The notes under the pieces: generated by a model | The model's database searches: none | Told to the model about the DNA's origin: nothing | Seen by the model: only the letters and a program-made list of their open reading frames with translations | Assembly (NCBI RefSeq): GCF_002563635.1 | Contig: NZ_PDIZ01000001.1 | Coordinates: 1,922,001-1,986,000, forward strand | DNA: 64,000 bases | Direction: 5' to 3' | Source of the DNA: Bacillus sp. es.036 | GTDB lineage: Bacteria; Bacillota; Bacilli; Bacillales; Guptibacillaceae | Position numbers and translations under genes: made by a program | Shown: piece after piece, positions 29,704 through 62,741 of the stretch | Position numbering within the stretch: the stretch's first letter is position 1 | Layout: every line of letters starts with the position of its first letter

Positions 29704-30153
29704 CTACAGCATATCAATAAACCGTTGTGATAACATCGGGGCCGCATCGGCGCTCTTACATATAATTAGAATCGTATCATCTCCGCTTATATTCCCCATA
29801 ATCTCTTCCCAGTCTAAATTATCGATTAGAGCACCGATAGCATTAGCGTTACCAGGAAGCGTTTTCATTACAATAAGATGATCCGCATGATCAATACTAA
29901 TAAACGCGTCTGTTAAAGTTCTTTTTAATTTTTGAAGCGGGTTAAAGCGCTGATCTGCTGGCAAACTGTATTTATATCTGCCGTCGATTGTTGGAACTTT
30001 AACAAGATGAAGCTCTTTAATATCTCTTGAAACAGTTGCTTGCGTAACGTTAAATCCTGCACTTTTAAGACAATAGACGAGCTCATCCTGTGTCTCAACA
30101 TCTTGATTGGCAATCATTTCCCGTATCTTGATATGGCGTTGTCCCTTATTCAT
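29704..30153 (-). CDS. argR: Arginine regulator ArgR/AhrC
   Basis: A 149-residue protein with the N-terminal winged-helix domain ([30 protein letters not shown]) and a C-terminal hexamerisation and arginine-binding domain with the GTIAGDDT-type motif, here [13 protein letters not shown]. It represses arginine synthesis and activates catabolism; the arginine transporter at 11717-13915 is a likely target. An ARG-box-like site lies in its own upstream region. Confidence 0.95.
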
Positions 30154-31133: not shown

Positions 31134-33026
31134 TTATGCCCTCTTTTGTTTTGCTGGAATCATTTTCTTTGCTTTCTCAGCAATATCATCTGAAGTTAAT
31201 CCAATTTCTTTTAATAACTCACTTACACTGCCGTGTTCGATATAAGCATCGGGGATTCCCATTCGTTGAATACCACCATGCTGATAGCCACTGTCATTAA
31301 CATATTCTAGAATGGCACTACCAAATCCACCTTGGAGTATAGCTTCTTCAACTGTAAGCATCGGTATGCCATCTTGCATGAGATCTGCAATCATTTTCTC
31401 ATCTAAGGGTTTTATGAAGCGAGCGTTAATAACACGAGCTGAAATACCTTCTTTTTCTAATTTATCCGCAGCACTCAACAGATCTTGTAACGTAGGGCCA
31501 AATGACAAGAGAGCAATATCCGTACCTTCACGAATAACTTCCCAGCTACCAATTTGAATTTCCTTTAGTTCTTGATCCATCTTTGTACCAATCCCGTTCC
31601 CTCTAGGATAGCGTACAGCAATTGGTCCCTGATTGTACTTCAAACTAGTATAAACCATATGCTGCAATTCATTCTCATCTTTCGCCATCATAAGGACCAT
31701 ATTAGGTAAGTGTCTAAGGAATGAGATATCGAAAACACCTTGGTGCGTTTCACCATCTGCTCCTACAAGCCCAGAACGGTCAATCGCTAGGAAAACATTC
31801 AAGTTTTGTCTGCAAACGTCATGAACGAGCTGATCATAAGCTCTTTGAAGAAACGTAGAATAAATCGATAAAACCGGTTTTAATTCCTGAGTTGCAAGTC
31901 CTGCAGCCATTGTAGTAGCATGCTGCTCAGCTATACCAACATCAAAAAGCCTTTCTGGGAATTGTTTTTCAAATGCTTCCCACTTAGAGCCTACTGTCAT
32001 GGCTGGCGTGATGACTGAGATGCGATCGTCCTTCTCTGCAAGCTTTCGCACTGTTTCACTAACGACCTTACTATATCCAGGCGCTGCGACCTTCGGTTTA
32101 ATTTGTTCACCTGCTTCAATCTTATAAGGACTCACACCGTGCCAAACGCCAATTTGATCGCTTTCTGCAGGTTGATAGCCTTTTCCTTTTTTCGTAAGTA
32201 CGTGAATAAGGACCGGTCCTTTTGTCTTCTTAGCATATTTAATGTTTTCCATTAACGCTTCAACGTCATGACCATCTACTGGTCCAAGGTAGGTAAAACC
32301 AAGCTCCTCAAAGAAAATTCCTGAAACCAACAAATATTTCAATGCATCTTTCACACGCTCAGCCGTTGAAGCTAGCGCTCCGCCAAACGCAGGGATTTTT
32401 TTAAGTAAATACTCAAGTTCATCTTTCGCTTTATGATATTTGCCAGCTGTGCGGAGCTTTCCTAAAATGTTATGAAGAGCACCTACATTTGGAGCAATGG
32501 ACATTTCATTGTCATTTAAGATGACGAGCATATCTTTTTGTTCGTGTCCGATATGATTAAGAGCTTCAAGTGCCATCCCACCTGTAAGAGCCCCATCTCC
32601 AATAATCGCAACTACACTTTCGTCAGAGCCTTTCATATCTCGAGCAGCCGCCATCCCCATTGCTGCTGATAGTGAGGTAGAGCTGTGCCCAGTTTCCCAG
32701 ACGTCATGCTCACTTTCATTTCGTTTTGGAAAACCACAAAGACCTTTATATTTACGTAGCGTGTCAAATCTCGAAGCTCGTCCAGTGAGGATTTTATGAA
32801 CATACGCCTGATGACCAACATCCCAAATAAATTTATCTTTTGGGCTATCATAAATTTTATGAAGCACAATTGTAAGTTCTACTACGCCAAGGTTAGGTCC
32901 AAGATGTCCACCAGTTTCGGATAGTTTGTTAATTAAAAAGCCTCTAATCTCTTCAGCAAGCTCGGTCATATCGTTCATATCATAATTCTTTAGAAACTTA
33001 GGATTCTCAATCTTTTCTAAATCCAT
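31134..33026 (-). CDS. dxs: 1-Deoxy-D-xylulose-5-phosphate synthase
   Basis: A 630-residue thiamine diphosphate enzyme, normal family length. Motifs: [14 protein letters not shown] with catalytic His, the cofactor motif [18 protein letters not shown]...[12 protein letters not shown], and the second-domain [15 protein letters not shown]. It condenses pyruvate and glyceraldehyde-3-phosphate, the first step of the MEP isoprenoid pathway. It follows oapA by 18 bases and precedes yqxC by 6. Isoprenoid genes on both sides of the OLE locus are a known trait of OLE-containing genomes. Confidence 0.97.
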
Positions 33027-33044: not shown

Positions 33045-33653
33045 TTATTTCGATTTACGGTTTCCCTTTTTCTTTTTGGATTGTTTGTCCACCATCTTAA
33101 TCTTAAATGTTTTTTCTACATAGTATAAAAATCTCCCTACTTGAAAGATGATTCCTGTAGAAAAGTGGATGGCAAACGTTTTTCCGAGCGCTTTTCCTCC
33201 AACCGTTAACGCAGCAATGACGCTTGTAAATACTACTGATATTATATATTGAAACAAAGATCCATCGCTATGTCCAAGCTGAAGTGTTAATTGGACGACA
33301 ACGGTTGCAGAGGCTGTACCGCTTATAATACCCGATATATCACCAATTACATCATTACAGAAGCTTGCAACACGATCTGCGTTACGTGTCACAAAGATTG
33401 CATGTTTCGCACCAGTAAGACGTTCTGCGGCCATCGCATGAAATGGCACTTCGTTTGCGGCAGTAGAAGCTACACCAATTGTATCAAAGAATATCCCAAT
33501 TAGAACGATCAACAGAACTACAATCATACCAATTGCCCATGAAACTCCACTTAATACCGCTGTTGATATAATTGAAAAAATAGCCGCTAACACAAGTGTG
33601 ATAACGGCAATAGCTAAACTCCAGTTTATGGATTTTGATACGGAAGCTTTCAT
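33045..33653 (-). CDS. oapA: OLE-associated protein OapA (CNNM/DUF21-like membrane protein)
   Basis: A 202-residue protein with about four membrane helices (roughly residues 10-35, 39-60, 95-120 and 130-150) and a very basic tail (KQSKKKKGNRKSK). The middle part, GAKHAIFVTRNADRVASFCNDVIGDISGIISG, resembles the DUF21/CNNM transmembrane domain of magnesium transporters. It lies between an OLE RNA gene and dxs, the place of oapA in Bacillus halodurans, where OapA binds OLE RNA and takes it to the membrane. AAGGAG lies before the ATG. Loss of OLE or OapA in B. halodurans is linked to sensitivity to ethanol, cold and magnesium; that is knowledge of the relative, not seen here. Confidence 0.9.
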   Translation of the reverse strand: MKASVSKSINWSLAIAVITLVLAAIFSIISTAVLSGVSWAIGMIVVLLIVLIGIFFDTIGVASTAANEVPFHAMAAERLTGAKHAIFVTRNADRVASFCNDVIGDISGIISGTASATVVVQLTLQLGHSDGSLFQYIISVVFTSVIAALTVGGKALGKTFAIHFSTGIIFQVGRFLYYVEKTFKIKMVDKQSKKKKGNRKSK

Positions 33654-33690
33654 ATCTACTCCTTGTCCATTATATAATCACATAAAAATA

Positions 33691-33757
33691 GGTATCCAAC
33701 TAACAGGACATCAAGGGGTCAGATCGTTTCCCCCTGTTCCCTGTCAGTTGAATACCC
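33691..33757 (-). promoter_or_regulatory. Long hairpin between OLE RNA and oapA
   Basis: In the minus-strand RNA the first arm begins at 33757 and the second ends at 33691. The outer 17 positions pair without interruption (two G-U pairs), then an internal loop, then GGGG/CCCC. The sequence after it, CCTATTTTTATG, has a short U tract. It could be a leaky terminator that sets the level of oapA-dxs relative to OLE, or a processing site that makes the OLE 3' end. The oapA start is 37 bases downstream. Confidence 0.7.
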
Positions 33758-33769
33758 CTGCTGTATTAT

Positions 33770-34380
33770 GTATCGCAGAGTGGTCACTTAAAGAGTAAAG
33801 ACTGCGGCTTAGGTCCAGTAGGTTTTCCCAGATTGATACCTCAACGTCGCCGTTCAGGCGGTTTCCCTTTACATCAATCTTAGCGTAGTCACCATGCGCT
33901 AGACTGGATTACCACTTAGTCCGCACTATAATCCCCTTTAAGTGTCACTCGGAACAGTCTAGGAGTTTTCCTCAACAGTTCCACACATTTCCTAGCCTCT
34001 TTTGCAGAGCAGATTTCATATGGGTGGTAGGAAAAAAGCGGCCGGCCGAGCTGCAAATTTCCAATAATCCATAATCCCCTCTAGCTCCACTCAAGGCAGG
34101 CTACGCTGTTCAACTGCGTTCCCATGCAGCTGCAACAGGTTCATACCCCAATTCATAGCAGGCAGCGTTAACCGCTCTGCTACAAGAATGGGCCTCCGCG
34201 GAAGCAGGGTCAACGCCCACATGCCTTTGTGGATCGCCCTGCGACCTTAACTCCCAGCATCGACCCAAGTCTGGGCGACTCAAGCCAACACCAGGAACTT
34301 CATCGATGTGCCCTATGGCGGATTTTTAGGCCCGCCTTCAGAAATGGCGAACTGACTAGAATACTGCACCACTCAGTCTT
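33770..34380 (-). ncRNA. ole: OLE RNA (ornate, large, extremophilic)
   Basis: About 610 nt with no coding capacity and much higher GC than its surroundings. Many local helices can be read: 7-bp GATTGAT/ATCAATC at 33831-33837 and 33873-33879 enclosing a GCC/GGC hairpin; TAGCG/CGCTA at 33881-33885 and 33897-33901; GGCGG/CCGCC near the 5' end. The two ends are complementary: 34368-34374 pairs with 33778-33784. Length, position directly after ispA and before oapA and dxs, and the OapA homologue match the OLE RNA of alkaliphilic Bacillus. A promoter lies just upstream. Ends are estimates, about 10 nt uncertain at each side. No covariance-model search was possible. Confidence 0.9.
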
Positions 34381-34385
34381 AGTTT

Positions 34386-34414
34386 ATTATACCACACATT
34401 AGTTTTATGCTCAA
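34386..34414 (-). promoter_or_regulatory. Sigma-A promoter of OLE RNA
   Basis: Minus strand TTGAGC (34414-34409), 17-base spacer, TATAAT (34391-34386) preceded by TGG, giving an extended -10. It sits between the ispA stop and the OLE 5' end; predicted start about 34380-34378, which yields the observed RNA length of about 610 nt. Confidence 0.8.
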
Positions 34415-34421
34415 TTATGTG

Positions 34422-35303
34422 TTAGTGGTCCCGCTCTACAATAAATTTCGCAATAGATTGTAAAGTGTCTTTTTCTACGTTAGCAGCAGTTAGATGGGCT
34501 AATCCCTCTTTAAAATGGTGATTAAGTTTTTCTTTTGCTCCGTCTAGCGTGAGAAGCTTTGGATAAGTACTTTTTTCGTTCGTTTCATCACTACCAGGAA
34601 GTTTTCCGATCTTCCCTTCTTCTCCTTCAACGTCAAGAATATCATCGCTAATTTGGAAGGAAAGACCTATGTGTTCGCCAAAAGCACGTAGATGTTCACG
34701 TTGATGACTTGTTGCATGACCAATTATTGCCCCAGCCATAATAGAGAATACAAGAAGTTTTCCTGTTTTATGATGATGAATGTATTCAAGTTGTTCTAGC
34801 GTTAATTCTTGCTTCTCCCCGTCTAAATCCGCCATTTGTCCTCCTACCATTCCGGAAGGACCAGCAGCGTGTGATAATAATTTAATCAAGTCAACTTTTT
34901 GTTCACTTGTTAAATTGGAATCTGCAATAAGTTCAAAGCTTTGGGTTAATAGCGCATCCCCAGCAAGAATTGCAGTTGCCTCTCCAAAAACGATATGATT
35001 TGTTGGTTTACCTCGACGTAAATCGTCATCGTCCATTGCAGGCAAGTCATCATGAATCAATGAGTACGTATGAATCATCTCAACCGCACACGCCACTGGA
35101 ATGGCTTCTTTAATGGAGTGACCAAATGCTTCTACGGTAGCGAGCATTAATATTGGACGGATACGTTTTCCACCTGCGTGAATCGAATACAACATCGCAT
35201 TCTTCAATGATTCCGGCATCTCCAAGCGGTCAATGTATGCGGGAAGTTCTTCATCCAACAGTTTCTTACATTCGTTCATATAGGAACTGAGATCTGAAGT
35301 CAC
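34422..35303 (-). CDS. ispA: Farnesyl diphosphate synthase (geranyltranstransferase)
   Basis: A 293-residue trans-prenyltransferase with first Asp-rich motif [16 protein letters not shown] and second motif SDDILD. The two residues inserted in the first motif (DDxxxxD) are typical of bacterial type II farnesyl diphosphate synthases. It starts with GTG overlapping the xseB stop (GTGA). Product feeds undecaprenyl and menaquinone chains. The next gene on the strand is OLE RNA. Confidence 0.95.
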
Positions 35304-58816: not shown

Positions 58817-60274
58817 TTACGCTTTTTGGTATCGTAATATTGGTTTTCTAGCAGCGGTCGTTTCATCCAGTCGACCAATGACAGTTGTATGAGGAGCTTC
58901 CTGCACAATTTCAGGGTTATCTTCTGCTTCTTTAGCAATCTGAAGCAGTACATCACAGAATTCATCAAGCGTTTCTTTTGATTCTGTTTCTGTAGGTTCA
59001 ATCATCATACACTCTTCGACATTGATAGGGAAATAAATCGTAGGTGGATGATACCCAAAATCAAGCAAACGCTTGGCCATATCTAACGTTCGAACACCCA
59101 GTTTCTTTTGTTTCTTACCAGAAATAACGAATTCGTGCTTACAATGCTGTTCATACGGCAACACAAAAGCATCTTGAAGACGTCTCATCATATAATTTGC
59201 GTTCAAAACCGCGTTTTCAGATACTTGCTTTAGTCCTTCTGGCCCCATCGTACGAATGTACGTATAAGCACGGACGTTAATACCAAAGTTTCCATAATAA
59301 GGTTTCACTCGTCCAATCGATTGAGGACGATCATAGTCAAAACGATACGCATCATTTGCTTTTACAAGGACTGGTTTCGGAAGATATGGGATTAAATCTG
59401 ATTTAACGCCCACAGGTCCTGAACCAGGTCCTCCTCCACCGTGTGGTCCAGTAAAGGTTTTGTGTAAATTTAAATGCACGACATCAAAGCCCATATCCCC
59501 CGGGCGAGCTGCCCCCATAATGGCATTCATATTTGCACCATCATAATAGAGTTTTCCACCAGCATCATGAATAATTGTCGCCATCTCGGTAATTTGCTCT
59601 TCAAACAGACCAAGGGTATTGGGATTTGTAAGCATAAGAGCTGCCGTGTCATGATCTACAACACGCTTTAGATCTTCAAGATCAACTAGCCCTTTTTCAT
59701 TTGATTTAACGGTCACTGCCTCAAAACCAGCAACGGTGGCAGAGGCGGGATTTGTACCGTGGGCAGAGTCTGGGACAATGACTTTTGTACGATTAAAATC
59801 CCCATTTGCTTCATGATAGGCACGAATCATCATTAATCCTGTCCACTCGCCATGAGCACCTGCAGCAGGTTGTAGGGTCACTTCGTCCATACCTGTTACA
59901 GCGACAAGGTTTTCCTGAAGGTTGTACATCATTTCTAGCGCACCCTGAACGGTCTCCTCTTCTTGAAGCGGATGGACAAAAGCAAAACCAGGATACCTTG
60001 CCACATCTTCGTTAATTTTTGGATTATACTTCATCGTACATGAACCAAGCGGATAAAATCCAGAATCCACCCCGTGATTACGTTTCGATAAGGCGGTATA
60101 GTGACGCATTAGCTGCAGCTCTGACACTTCTGGTAGCTCCGGTTCAGTATTGCGATTAAATTCCTCCGGTAACCATTCATCTAAATCAATGTCAGGAACA
60201 TCAAGTTCAGGAAGACTGTATGAAATACGCTCCGGTTCACTTAGCTCAAATATTAACGCCTGGTCTTTACTCAT
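58817..60274 (-). CDS. gcvPB: Glycine dehydrogenase (decarboxylating) subunit 2
   Basis: A 485-residue PLP enzyme subunit. The PLP lysine is in [18 protein letters not shown]; the Gly-rich loop is next to it. Together with GcvPA it forms P-protein, which decarboxylates glycine and passes the aminomethyl group to lipoyl-GcvH. It overlaps gcvPA by 4 bases (ATGA). Confidence 0.96.
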
Positions 60275-61614
60275 TTTGCTCCCCCCACTTCTTCTACAAA
60301 CATATCAATTTCCGCTTTTGTACGATTTTCTGTTACTGCGACAAGCATGTGATTGTTAAGTTCCGGATAATCGCGACCAAGATCATACCCGCCGATGATT
60401 CCTTTAGTTAATAACTTGCGATTCAATTCCTTGATTGGGCCGTTAACCTTAATAACAAATTCATTGAAATAGATGCCATTGAACACAGTCTCTACACCAG
60501 CTTCTTGAAGACGTGCTTTCGCATAATGAGCTTTTTTTATATTTTGCTCTGCCATTTTGCGTACGCCTTTCTTTCCGAGCGCGCTCATAGCAACTGAGGA
60601 AGCTAGCGCATTTAGTGCCTGGTTTGAACATATATTGGACGTCGCTTTATCCCTGCGAATATGCTGTTCTCTTGCTTGTAACGTAAGTACAAAACCACGC
60701 TGTCCATTATCATCAGTTGTTTGTCCAATCAAACGTCCTGGAACTTTCCGCATTAGTTTTTTCGTCACTGCGAAATATCCACAGTGAGGCCCACCAAATT
60801 GAGCTGGGATACCAAACGGCTGACAATCTCCCACAACAATATCTGCACCCATCTCACCAGGTGGAGTTAAGCGCCCAAGCGCCAGTGGGTTACTTGAAAC
60901 GACAAACATTGCTTTTTGCTCATGTACAAGCTTTTCAATATCTGGCAATGGTTCAAGTTGCCCGAAAAAGTTCGGATACTGAACCATCACACAAGCAGTA
61001 TTTTCGTCAATTTCTTGCTTCAACTTATCTAAGTCTGTAACTCCATTGCTCGAATCGACTTCAACCACGGATAAGCGTTGCCCTCTAGCATAAGTATCAA
61101 TTACGGCACGCGCTTCTGGGTGGACCGTTTTAGATACGATGATTTTTTTCTTTTTTGTTTGTCCGGCACTTAGCAGACCCGCTTCAGCTAGAGCCGTAGG
61201 ACCATCGTACATCGAGGAATTCGCTACTTCCATTCCTGTTAATTCACTAATCATCGTTTGAAACTCAAAAATAGCTTGCAATTCACCTTGAGAAATTTCA
61301 GGTTGGTATGGCGTGTAGGCCGTATAAAACTCAGAGCGACGAATAACGTGATCTACGACAGAAGGAATGGCATGATCATAAACGCCTGCACCGAGGAAAG
61401 ACGCATTTTCGAGAGTATTCGCATTTTGGGATGATAGCTTTGACATGTAACGAATCAATTCCGATTCAAAAAGCTGCTTTTCCACCTTAAGTTCGCCTTT
61501 AAAACGAATGGCTTCTGGAATATCCTCAAAAAGATCCTGAACAGAGTCCACCCCAATTGTTTCAAGCATTTCTTTCCTGTCCTGGTCAGTCGTTGGCAAA
61601 TAGCGATGTTTCAT
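60271..61614 (-). CDS. gcvPA: Glycine dehydrogenase (decarboxylating) subunit 1
   Basis: A 447-residue N-terminal-type P-protein subunit, beginning [17 protein letters not shown], with [23 protein letters not shown] and [15 protein letters not shown]-type sequence (here [12 protein letters not shown]). Forms the alpha2beta2 P-protein with GcvPB. 26 bases after gcvT. Confidence 0.96.
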
Positions 61615-61640: not shown

Positions 61641-62741
61641 TTATTTCTGACGTTTATAGAATGGTGATGGAATAACTTTTGCTTGTACACGCTTATTGCG
61701 AATTTCCACATCTAACTCAGTATCCATTTCTGTATACTCTTTCTTAATTAGCGCAAGACCAACGTTCTTTTTTAAAGTTGGCGATTGTGTACCTGTTGTC
61801 ACTTCTCCAATCAGTTGTTCCCCTTTATAAACAAGGTAGTTCGTACGAGGAATACCCCTCCCAATCATTTCAATGCCAACCAATTTTCGCTCCAGGCCTT
61901 TTTCACGCTGACGAAGGAGAGCAGATTTACCAATAAAATCAGCCTCTTTACTAGTTTTAACAGCAAAACCGATTCCCGCTTCAAGCGGAGTGATATCCTT
62001 CGTTAGCTCCTGTCCGTAAAGAGCCAGCTTAGCTTCAAATCTAAGAGTATCACGAGCTCCCAAGCCGCAAGGTAAGATATTTTCAGGTTCACCCGCAGCT
62101 AAAATTGCCTTCCAGAGAGCAGGGGCATCTTCTGAAGCGGTATATAGTTCAAATCCATCTTCACCTGTATAACCAGTTCGAGAAACTAACGTTTTAATTC
62201 CCGCGATCATAAGATCAGCCTGAAACTTAAAGAAACCAATTGATGAAAGATCTGTATTTGTGAGACGTTGCAGAATGACCTCTGCTTTTGGACCTTGAAT
62301 CGCTAGTTGAGCCATCTCATTCGATATATTGTTAAGGGATACACCTTCAATGATGTGCTCCTCAAGCCAGTCAAAATCCTTAACGGTATTCGCTGCATTT
62401 ACGACTAATAAGTAATGTTCCTCCGAGTATTTGTAAACGAGAAGGTCGTCTACCGTACCACCATCCTCATAGCACATCGCAGTATACTGGGCTCCATTTA
62501 CTTTCAGTTTGCTAACATCATTTGTCATCATCTTCTGAAGATAATCAAGGGCTTGTTCACCTTTGACATCAATTTCTCCCATATGAGAAACATCAAATAA
62601 ACCAGCTCTTGTTCTCACAGCTTCATGCTCTTCCTTAATACTAGAAAATTGAACAGGAAGTGCCCATCCACCAAAATCAATCGTTTTAGCACCCATTGAC
62701 TTATACGTTTCAAATAACGGGGTTTTCAATAACTCGCTCAT
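61641..62741 (-). CDS. gcvT: Aminomethyltransferase (T-protein)
   Basis: A 366-residue folate-dependent T-protein: [32 protein letters not shown] with the folate-binding region, and [25 protein letters not shown]. It releases ammonia and makes methylenetetrahydrofolate. First gene of gcvT-gcvPA-gcvPB, directly under the glycine riboswitch. gcvH is not in the window. Confidence 0.96.

Follow-up and report, generated by a model that had tools for sequence, protein, structure and literature searches.

OLE is, to our knowledge, among the largest conserved bacterial RNAs for which no biochemical function is known, and a locus that carries it raises the question of how the ends of such a molecule are made, in particular the 3' end that faces the downstream gene oapA. 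The locus considered here lies in a stretch of 64,000 nucleotides, referred to throughout as the window, from a Pseudalkalibacillus near P. hwajinpoensis, one strain of which (L031) encodes an identical OapA. The features on which the argument depends are the following, in the direction of transcription; published work is cited by PMC number.

34422..35303, minus strand: ispA, polyprenyl synthase gene and upstream neighbour (Pfam PF00348, E 1.1e-60)
34386..34414, minus strand: dedicated sigma-70-type promoter with an extended -10, TTGAGC-17-TATAAT after TGG (pattern scan)
33764..34388, minus strand: OLE RNA gene, RF01071 over its full length (cmscan, 528.2 bits)
33767..33772, minus strand: TACATA, in RNA UACAUA, predicted EndoA/MazF site (U^ACAUA; sequence match to enzyme specificity)
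33690..33757, minus strand: genus-specific stem-loop of 19 bp, then T5 at 33688-33684 (fold z-score -4.77 for 33654-33770)
33669..33698, minus strand: possible separate oapA promoter, TGGATA-18-TATAAT, overlapping the stem-loop (pattern scan only)
33045..33653, minus strand: oapA, OLE-associated membrane protein A (69% identity to H. halodurans OapA; 23-sequence alignment)
31134..33026, minus strand: dxs, downstream neighbour (Pfam PF13292, E 7.5e-122)

The OLE RNA gene and its protein partners

It is virtually certain that the locus encodes a member of the OLE family. A cmscan search of the whole window places the Rfam OLE match (RF01071) at 33764-34388 on the minus strand with E 4.6e-152; the match covers the model from end to end (1-616 of 616), scores 528.2 bits where the gathering score is 50, has a G+C content of 50% and aligns to the model with a mean accuracy of 0.97. 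The initial annotation had proposed an OLE RNA at this place, a proposal that the lack of a covariance-model hit was to count against, and the 528 bits obtained bear it out. The properties it had read from the letters hold as well: no open reading frame of at least 80 aa overlaps 33654-34421, where an interval free of coding frames had been claimed; the two ends are complementary as described, GAGUGGU at 34374-34368 pairing by eye with ACCACUC at 33784-33778; the RNA does sit between ispA and the gene for the OapA membrane protein; and the limits it gave, 33770-34380, fall within a few bases of the RNA predicted here, which runs from about 34379 to 33772 and would be 607-609 nt long (about 608). 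As an OLE locus the window is ordinary, and the identification of OLE is by itself routine.

The predicted start of transcription, 34380-34378, precedes the conserved 5' end GUGGUGCAG by about 7 nt. An element resembling TGnTATAAT stands upstream of OLE in every one of the 74 distinct Bacilli loci; 57 of them also have TTGAG. The OLE of H. halodurans is already reported to have its own promoter within an operon, and presumably to be processed (PMC9723947), so that the promoter described here is a confirmation. An attempt to carry over the published H. halodurans OLE numbering with a single offset put nucleotide 1 inside the -10 element, and that numbering was left unused.

On the minus strand the gene order is nusB, xseA, xseB, ispA, OLE, oapA, dxs, a gene for an FtsJ-type methyltransferase and argR, with xseB assigned from position and size only. 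The argR gene of this cluster occupies 29704-30153 on the minus strand of the window, and ArgR has been named as a possible OLE partner (PMC12265935). At some distance, the window also contains a Glycine riboswitch (RF00504, 62953-63041, minus strand, 70.7 bits by cmscan), downstream of which lie gcvT (61641-62741), gcvPA (60271-61614) and gcvPB (58817-60274), open reading frames that were named by eye.

The gene directly downstream of OLE encodes a protein whose 69% identity to the OapA of Halalkalibacterium halodurans extends over 185 residues, which upholds its earlier designation as the partner of the RNA. Its description as CNNM-like is weak by Pfam, where the score against the CNNM family is 12.1 bits, under the cut-off of 28.4. 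In a search of the genome itself, however, residues 47-179 hit (E 9.8e-4) the region that encodes the CNNM domain of a protein of 427 aa. A structure prediction for OapA (pLDDT 63, pTM 0.44) was too poor for use. MpfA, a CNNM-domain protein, has been called structurally related to OapA and is reported to anticorrelate with OLE (PMC11332333); the OLE-bearing genome studied here also has two full CNNM-domain proteins (G000:C1:2840007 and G000:C1:176264).

Candidates for the other two known partners, for which a look in the genome had been recommended, were found in a ribosomal-protein region away from the OLE locus, and are identified by sequence similarity. The candidate for OapB (L116:7307-7627) matches 7k9b, the solved OLE-associated protein B, with E 8.6e-38, and that for OapC (L115:770-1024) matches 3v7e with E 9.9e-27 and 'Ribosomal protein YbxF' 4lck with 1.3e-26; besides the latter, the genome encodes a second protein of the L7Ae family (L111). 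A search with the KOW Pfam family missed OapB, which was found from its position between map and infA, presumably the place of B. subtilis ybzG.

OLE occurs in 43 of 61 genomes (the window's own and 60 relatives), and a match to OapA at E 1.1e-57 or better is present in all 43; a strong OapA is found in none of the 18 OLE-negative genomes, two of which show a marginal match near E 6e-4. Across the phylum, 182 of 249 genomes drawn have OLE. Individual genomes present departures of their own. In G004, of the same genus, OLE is full-length but the match to the adjacent oapA is split in two and its read-through contains stops, either a sequencing error or gene decay. Second OapA-like matches, at 42-47% identity, lie away from OLE at G010:C3:265384-265947 and G046:C1:467997-468573; the one in G046 is in two pieces, and both genomes have one OLE match each.

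A conserved hexamer beside the OLE 3' end

When the spacers between OLE and oapA were read by eye, the hexamer TACATA was found to be common to them, although the bases around it do not align. In the window it follows the closing helix by 5 nt, within the unpaired stretch that ends the Rfam match, and a cut there, at 33772-33767, would lie 607-609 nt from the predicted start. A first count, which used 72 of 110 loci, found TACATA in 68 of the 72, against 2.7 expected from shuffles. The fuller survey used 112 of 139 loci (26 were missed by the patterns and one had no closing-helix match), reduced to 74 distinct Bacilli loci and 25 others, or 99 OLE bodies in all. In 71 of the 74 distinct Bacilli loci TACATA is found downstream of the closing helix at no more than 70 nt, and it is the top hexamer of that 70-nt interval, in which permutations of the same composition average 4.3; the spacing from helix to site is 0-19 nt in 69 of the 71, and 40 and 55 nt in the other two. 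The first TACAT is followed by A in 70 of 73 Bacilli loci, and when one position was left out at a time each of the six proved strongly preferred, with mixed bases on either side. Among 80 named loci, 72 carry TACATA between OLE and oapA, 16-224 nt upstream of the oapA start codon. The eight that do not are L047, L071, L089, L090, L099, L104, L105 and L107; three of these belong to Lederbergia (L089, L104 and L107), and two bear the name Bacillus sp. (L090 and L105).

Outside the Bacilli the hexamer is less general and still prominent. The genomes considered, 129 in number, were taken down a score-ordered list, with some skipped, from the 182 OLE-positive ones; TACATA is present in 48 of them and in 26 of 57 families. 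It is the top hexamer of a 67-nt interval spanning the end of the Rfam match (permutations average 4.0), ahead of the hexamers of the helix and of the Shine-Dalgarno sequence, and the final A is missing in four of the 52 genomes with TACAT. Most of these sites are found in the unpaired tail of the match, 14 bases or fewer from its end, and for this reason TACATA stands outside the 15 hexamers found in most families when only bases beyond the match are counted. One-base variants of the site, such as TACAAA, occur 0-7 times in the 81 genomes that have no TACATA, near the values for permutations of the same composition for the ten variants compared.

Within the 99 OLE bodies, taken from GUGGUGCAG to the closing helix, TACATA does not occur at all, the lowest count of 60 permutations of the same composition (mean 8.4), and TACAT occurs eight times, the rarest of its 30 permutations; the sequences of these bodies are related, so that both counts are descriptive. 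Upstream of OLE the hexamer is at background (2 of 74 loci; permutations 3.8). Downstream of RNase P RNA, which served as a control, it is found in 0 of 30 loci (permutations 0.7), and OLE treated by the same scheme gives 29 of 30, both sets holding many genomes of one genus. Single-sequence folding, here applied to long RNAs, favours an unpaired site to a moderate degree only, the mean unpaired probability being 0.58 at the site (median 0.64, n=79) and 0.35 over the whole RNA. Inspection by eye disclosed no consistent partner for TACATA in the 5' leader. Terminators and missing sites show no significant trade-off overall (p 0.29). In family f80 all four genomes (G170, locus L138; G091, locus L140; G205; G133) have no TACATA and have a terminator-like hairpin after OLE, which suggests that in this family the 3' end is made by a terminator.

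EndoA as the candidate nuclease

The hexamer is one to which an RNase specificity has been assigned. EndoA of B. subtilis is reported to cut U/ACAUA strictly, UACAU requiring a following A (PMC11780869), and the MazF of Symbiobacterium to prefer UACAUA (PMC10893535); for other Gram-positive MazFs the site is given as U^ACAU, and the enzymes tested cut single-stranded RNA only (PMC5408214). The MazF of Desulforudis prefers UACAAA, unlike enzymes of the UACAUA type (PMC8634880). The genome from which the window comes has one MazF-family gene, whose product matches 'mRNA interferase EndoA' 4me7 over its full length (E 1.3e-66); a gene for EndoAI (E 1e-24) is beside it and precedes it, as does an alanine racemase-like gene recognized by eye. 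The specificity of this EndoA is taken from its homologue.

Genes of the MazF family (PF02452) are present in 172 of 173 OLE hosts, comprising all 44 Bacilli searched, which represent 44 of the 80 named loci, and 128 of 129 others; in 118 of the latter 129 the best E value is of the order of 1e-34 or below. H. halodurans (G323) has four such genes, one at EndoA strength. It was considered whether a missing MazF accounts for a missing site, and this was set aside: the enzyme is nearly universal, and a test of its absence therefore has little power. All eight named loci without TACATA come from genomes with an EndoA-type MazF, and several families combine strong EndoA-type matches with no site at all (f86, 0 of 5; f80, 0 of 4; f132, 0 of 3; f83, 0 of 3). 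Site presence and MazF strength are associated only marginally (Mann-Whitney p 0.027; Fisher p 0.053 at a threshold chosen post hoc), and one family, f77, drives the association: eight of eight of its genomes have neither the site nor a strong EndoA-type match. Taken with the position and conservation of the hexamer, the published specificities make it probable that the UACAUA next to OLE is a functional EndoA site.

Maturation of OLE and competing readings

For H. halodurans, 3' processing of OLE has been reported; the RNA can be cut by RNase P, and a part for RNase PH has been speculated upon (PMC11332333). A plausible sequence of events for the window can be set against this background. Transcription of OLE would start at the dedicated promoter and run on into oapA, and the 3' end would come from a cut at the conserved UACAUA just past the closing helix and not from a terminator. 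The cutter would be EndoA, a MazF-type RNase and the toxin of the EndoA/EndoAI pair, and its action would both free a compact OLE of about 608 nt and part it from the oapA message. The body of OLE, having no further UACAUA, would resist the enzyme; stress that frees EndoA would raise the amount of mature OLE, which would then assemble at the membrane with OapA, OapB and OapC into the complex known from H. halodurans. The variable distance of the site from the helix, the site-free body and the presence of a stress-linked enzyme in the host genome are all compatible with processing of OLE by EndoA. For H. halodurans itself a cut at U^ACAUA predicts an OLE of 611-613 nt, slightly under the reported length of about 630 nt (PMC9723947).

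That EndoA cuts at this UACAUA in living cells and thereby makes the mature 3' end is, on balance, somewhat favoured by these comparisons of sequence. In B. subtilis, cutting by EndoA is reported from exonuclease mutants and described as absent in the wild type, and on that account (PMC11780869) the enzyme may not explain an abundant OLE in unstressed cells; constitutive maturation would need a basal activity of EndoA or another nuclease.

Several other readings have to be weighed, and they are not all mutually exclusive. UACAUA could instead be the binding site of a protein, whether one of the OLE complex or another RNA-binding protein, with its likeness to the EndoA site a coincidence. A hexamer that is near-invariant in Bacilli and keeps roughly the same place would suit such a role, as would the lack of visible EndoA cutting in wild-type B. 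subtilis in the same report (PMC11780869). We consider this unlikely: all six positions, the sixth A included, fit the strict hexamer of EndoA, binding would not require the body of OLE to be free of TACATA, and the spacing between helix and site varies.

Somewhat less likely again is the reading in which the main effect of EndoA cutting is to eliminate or silence the ole-oapA cotranscript during stress, so that OapA falls, and not to mature OLE. It draws on the location of the site between OLE and the oapA start codon in most of the named loci (72 of 80) and is compatible with maturation by EndoA, but an OLE whose body contains no site would outlast the cut, and ethanol is reported to raise OLE fivefold (PMC9723947).

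A comparably small probability attaches to a 3' end made by RNase P, by RNase PH or by the genus stem-loop at 33757-33690 acting as a terminator. The two nucleases have the published mentions given above in their favour (PMC11332333), and the stem-loop is strong and followed by T5; by DNA similarity it is present in 12 of 14 genomes of the genus (the window's own included), in single copy and beside OLE. Among 11 aligned sequences, 17 of its 23 pairs are never broken and two are changed on both sides, and the divergent relatives L036 and L037 retain a hairpin. The stem-loop may serve in termination or as a signal for processing. It is missing from the output of a terminator scan, which, being limited to loops of 3-8 nt, could not have reported it; a search of Rfam with the stem-loop returned three matches, all far under their gathering scores. 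Against the terminator stands the restriction of this sequence to the genus and its absence from the neighbour species L038, and against all three agents that they leave the conserved UACAUA unexplained. Four Fictibacillus loci (L041, L043, L044 and L046) have an unrelated hairpin, recognized by eye, at the same place.

Finally, it is very improbable that TACATA serves as the -10 of a promoter for oapA, as its A+T-rich composition and position upstream of oapA might suggest. This reading was rejected by a test for the -35 element, none being found at 16-18 nt (the best match there averages 2.41 of 6, and 2.65 at other offsets), and the hexamer moreover ends in A, not T, at a very variable distance from oapA. 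The pattern scan that gave the possible separate oapA promoter returned four promoter-like sites in the stretch scanned, against 1.4 expected.

Returning to EndoA, the wider proposition is that in site-bearing lineages of the Bacillota an EndoA/MazF enzyme matures or releases OLE at one UACAUA, so that a stress-activated toxin directly controls the amount of the RNA. This is put forward tentatively, as a possibility somewhat short of an even one. If it is true, OLE would be a conserved and dedicated substrate and would give EndoA a physiological task, where the physiological role of MazF systems is debated (PMC6562991). No link between OLE RNA and MazF or EndoA was found in the literature searched, outside which most subscription journals fall. 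An EndoA site beside OLE, near-invariant in Bacilli and found in 26 of 57 families beyond them, would join the question of how the OLE 3' end is made to that of what MazF enzymes do.

Three known systems come closest. The magnesium transport proteins of the CNNM/MpfA group share with OapA a membrane domain that it matches weakly; OapA, with 202 aa, corresponds to just one portion of them and scores under the Pfam cut-off. Cleavage by B. subtilis EndoA/MazF at U/ACAUA involves an identical hexamer, and the window's genome encodes a closely similar EndoA together with EndoAI; in B. subtilis this is RNA cleavage by an RNase toxin, whereas the window has a predicted site that is kept at a single position next to a structured non-coding RNA. 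The third is the OLE of H. halodurans, which is the same RNA (RF01071) with oapA downstream, a promoter of the same type and TACATA after the closing helix (L074), and whose partners OapB and OapC have candidates in the genome of the window; the two differ in the spacer between ole and oapA, which by eye is shorter and of other sequence in H. halodurans, and in the window contains the stem-loop of about 68 nt.
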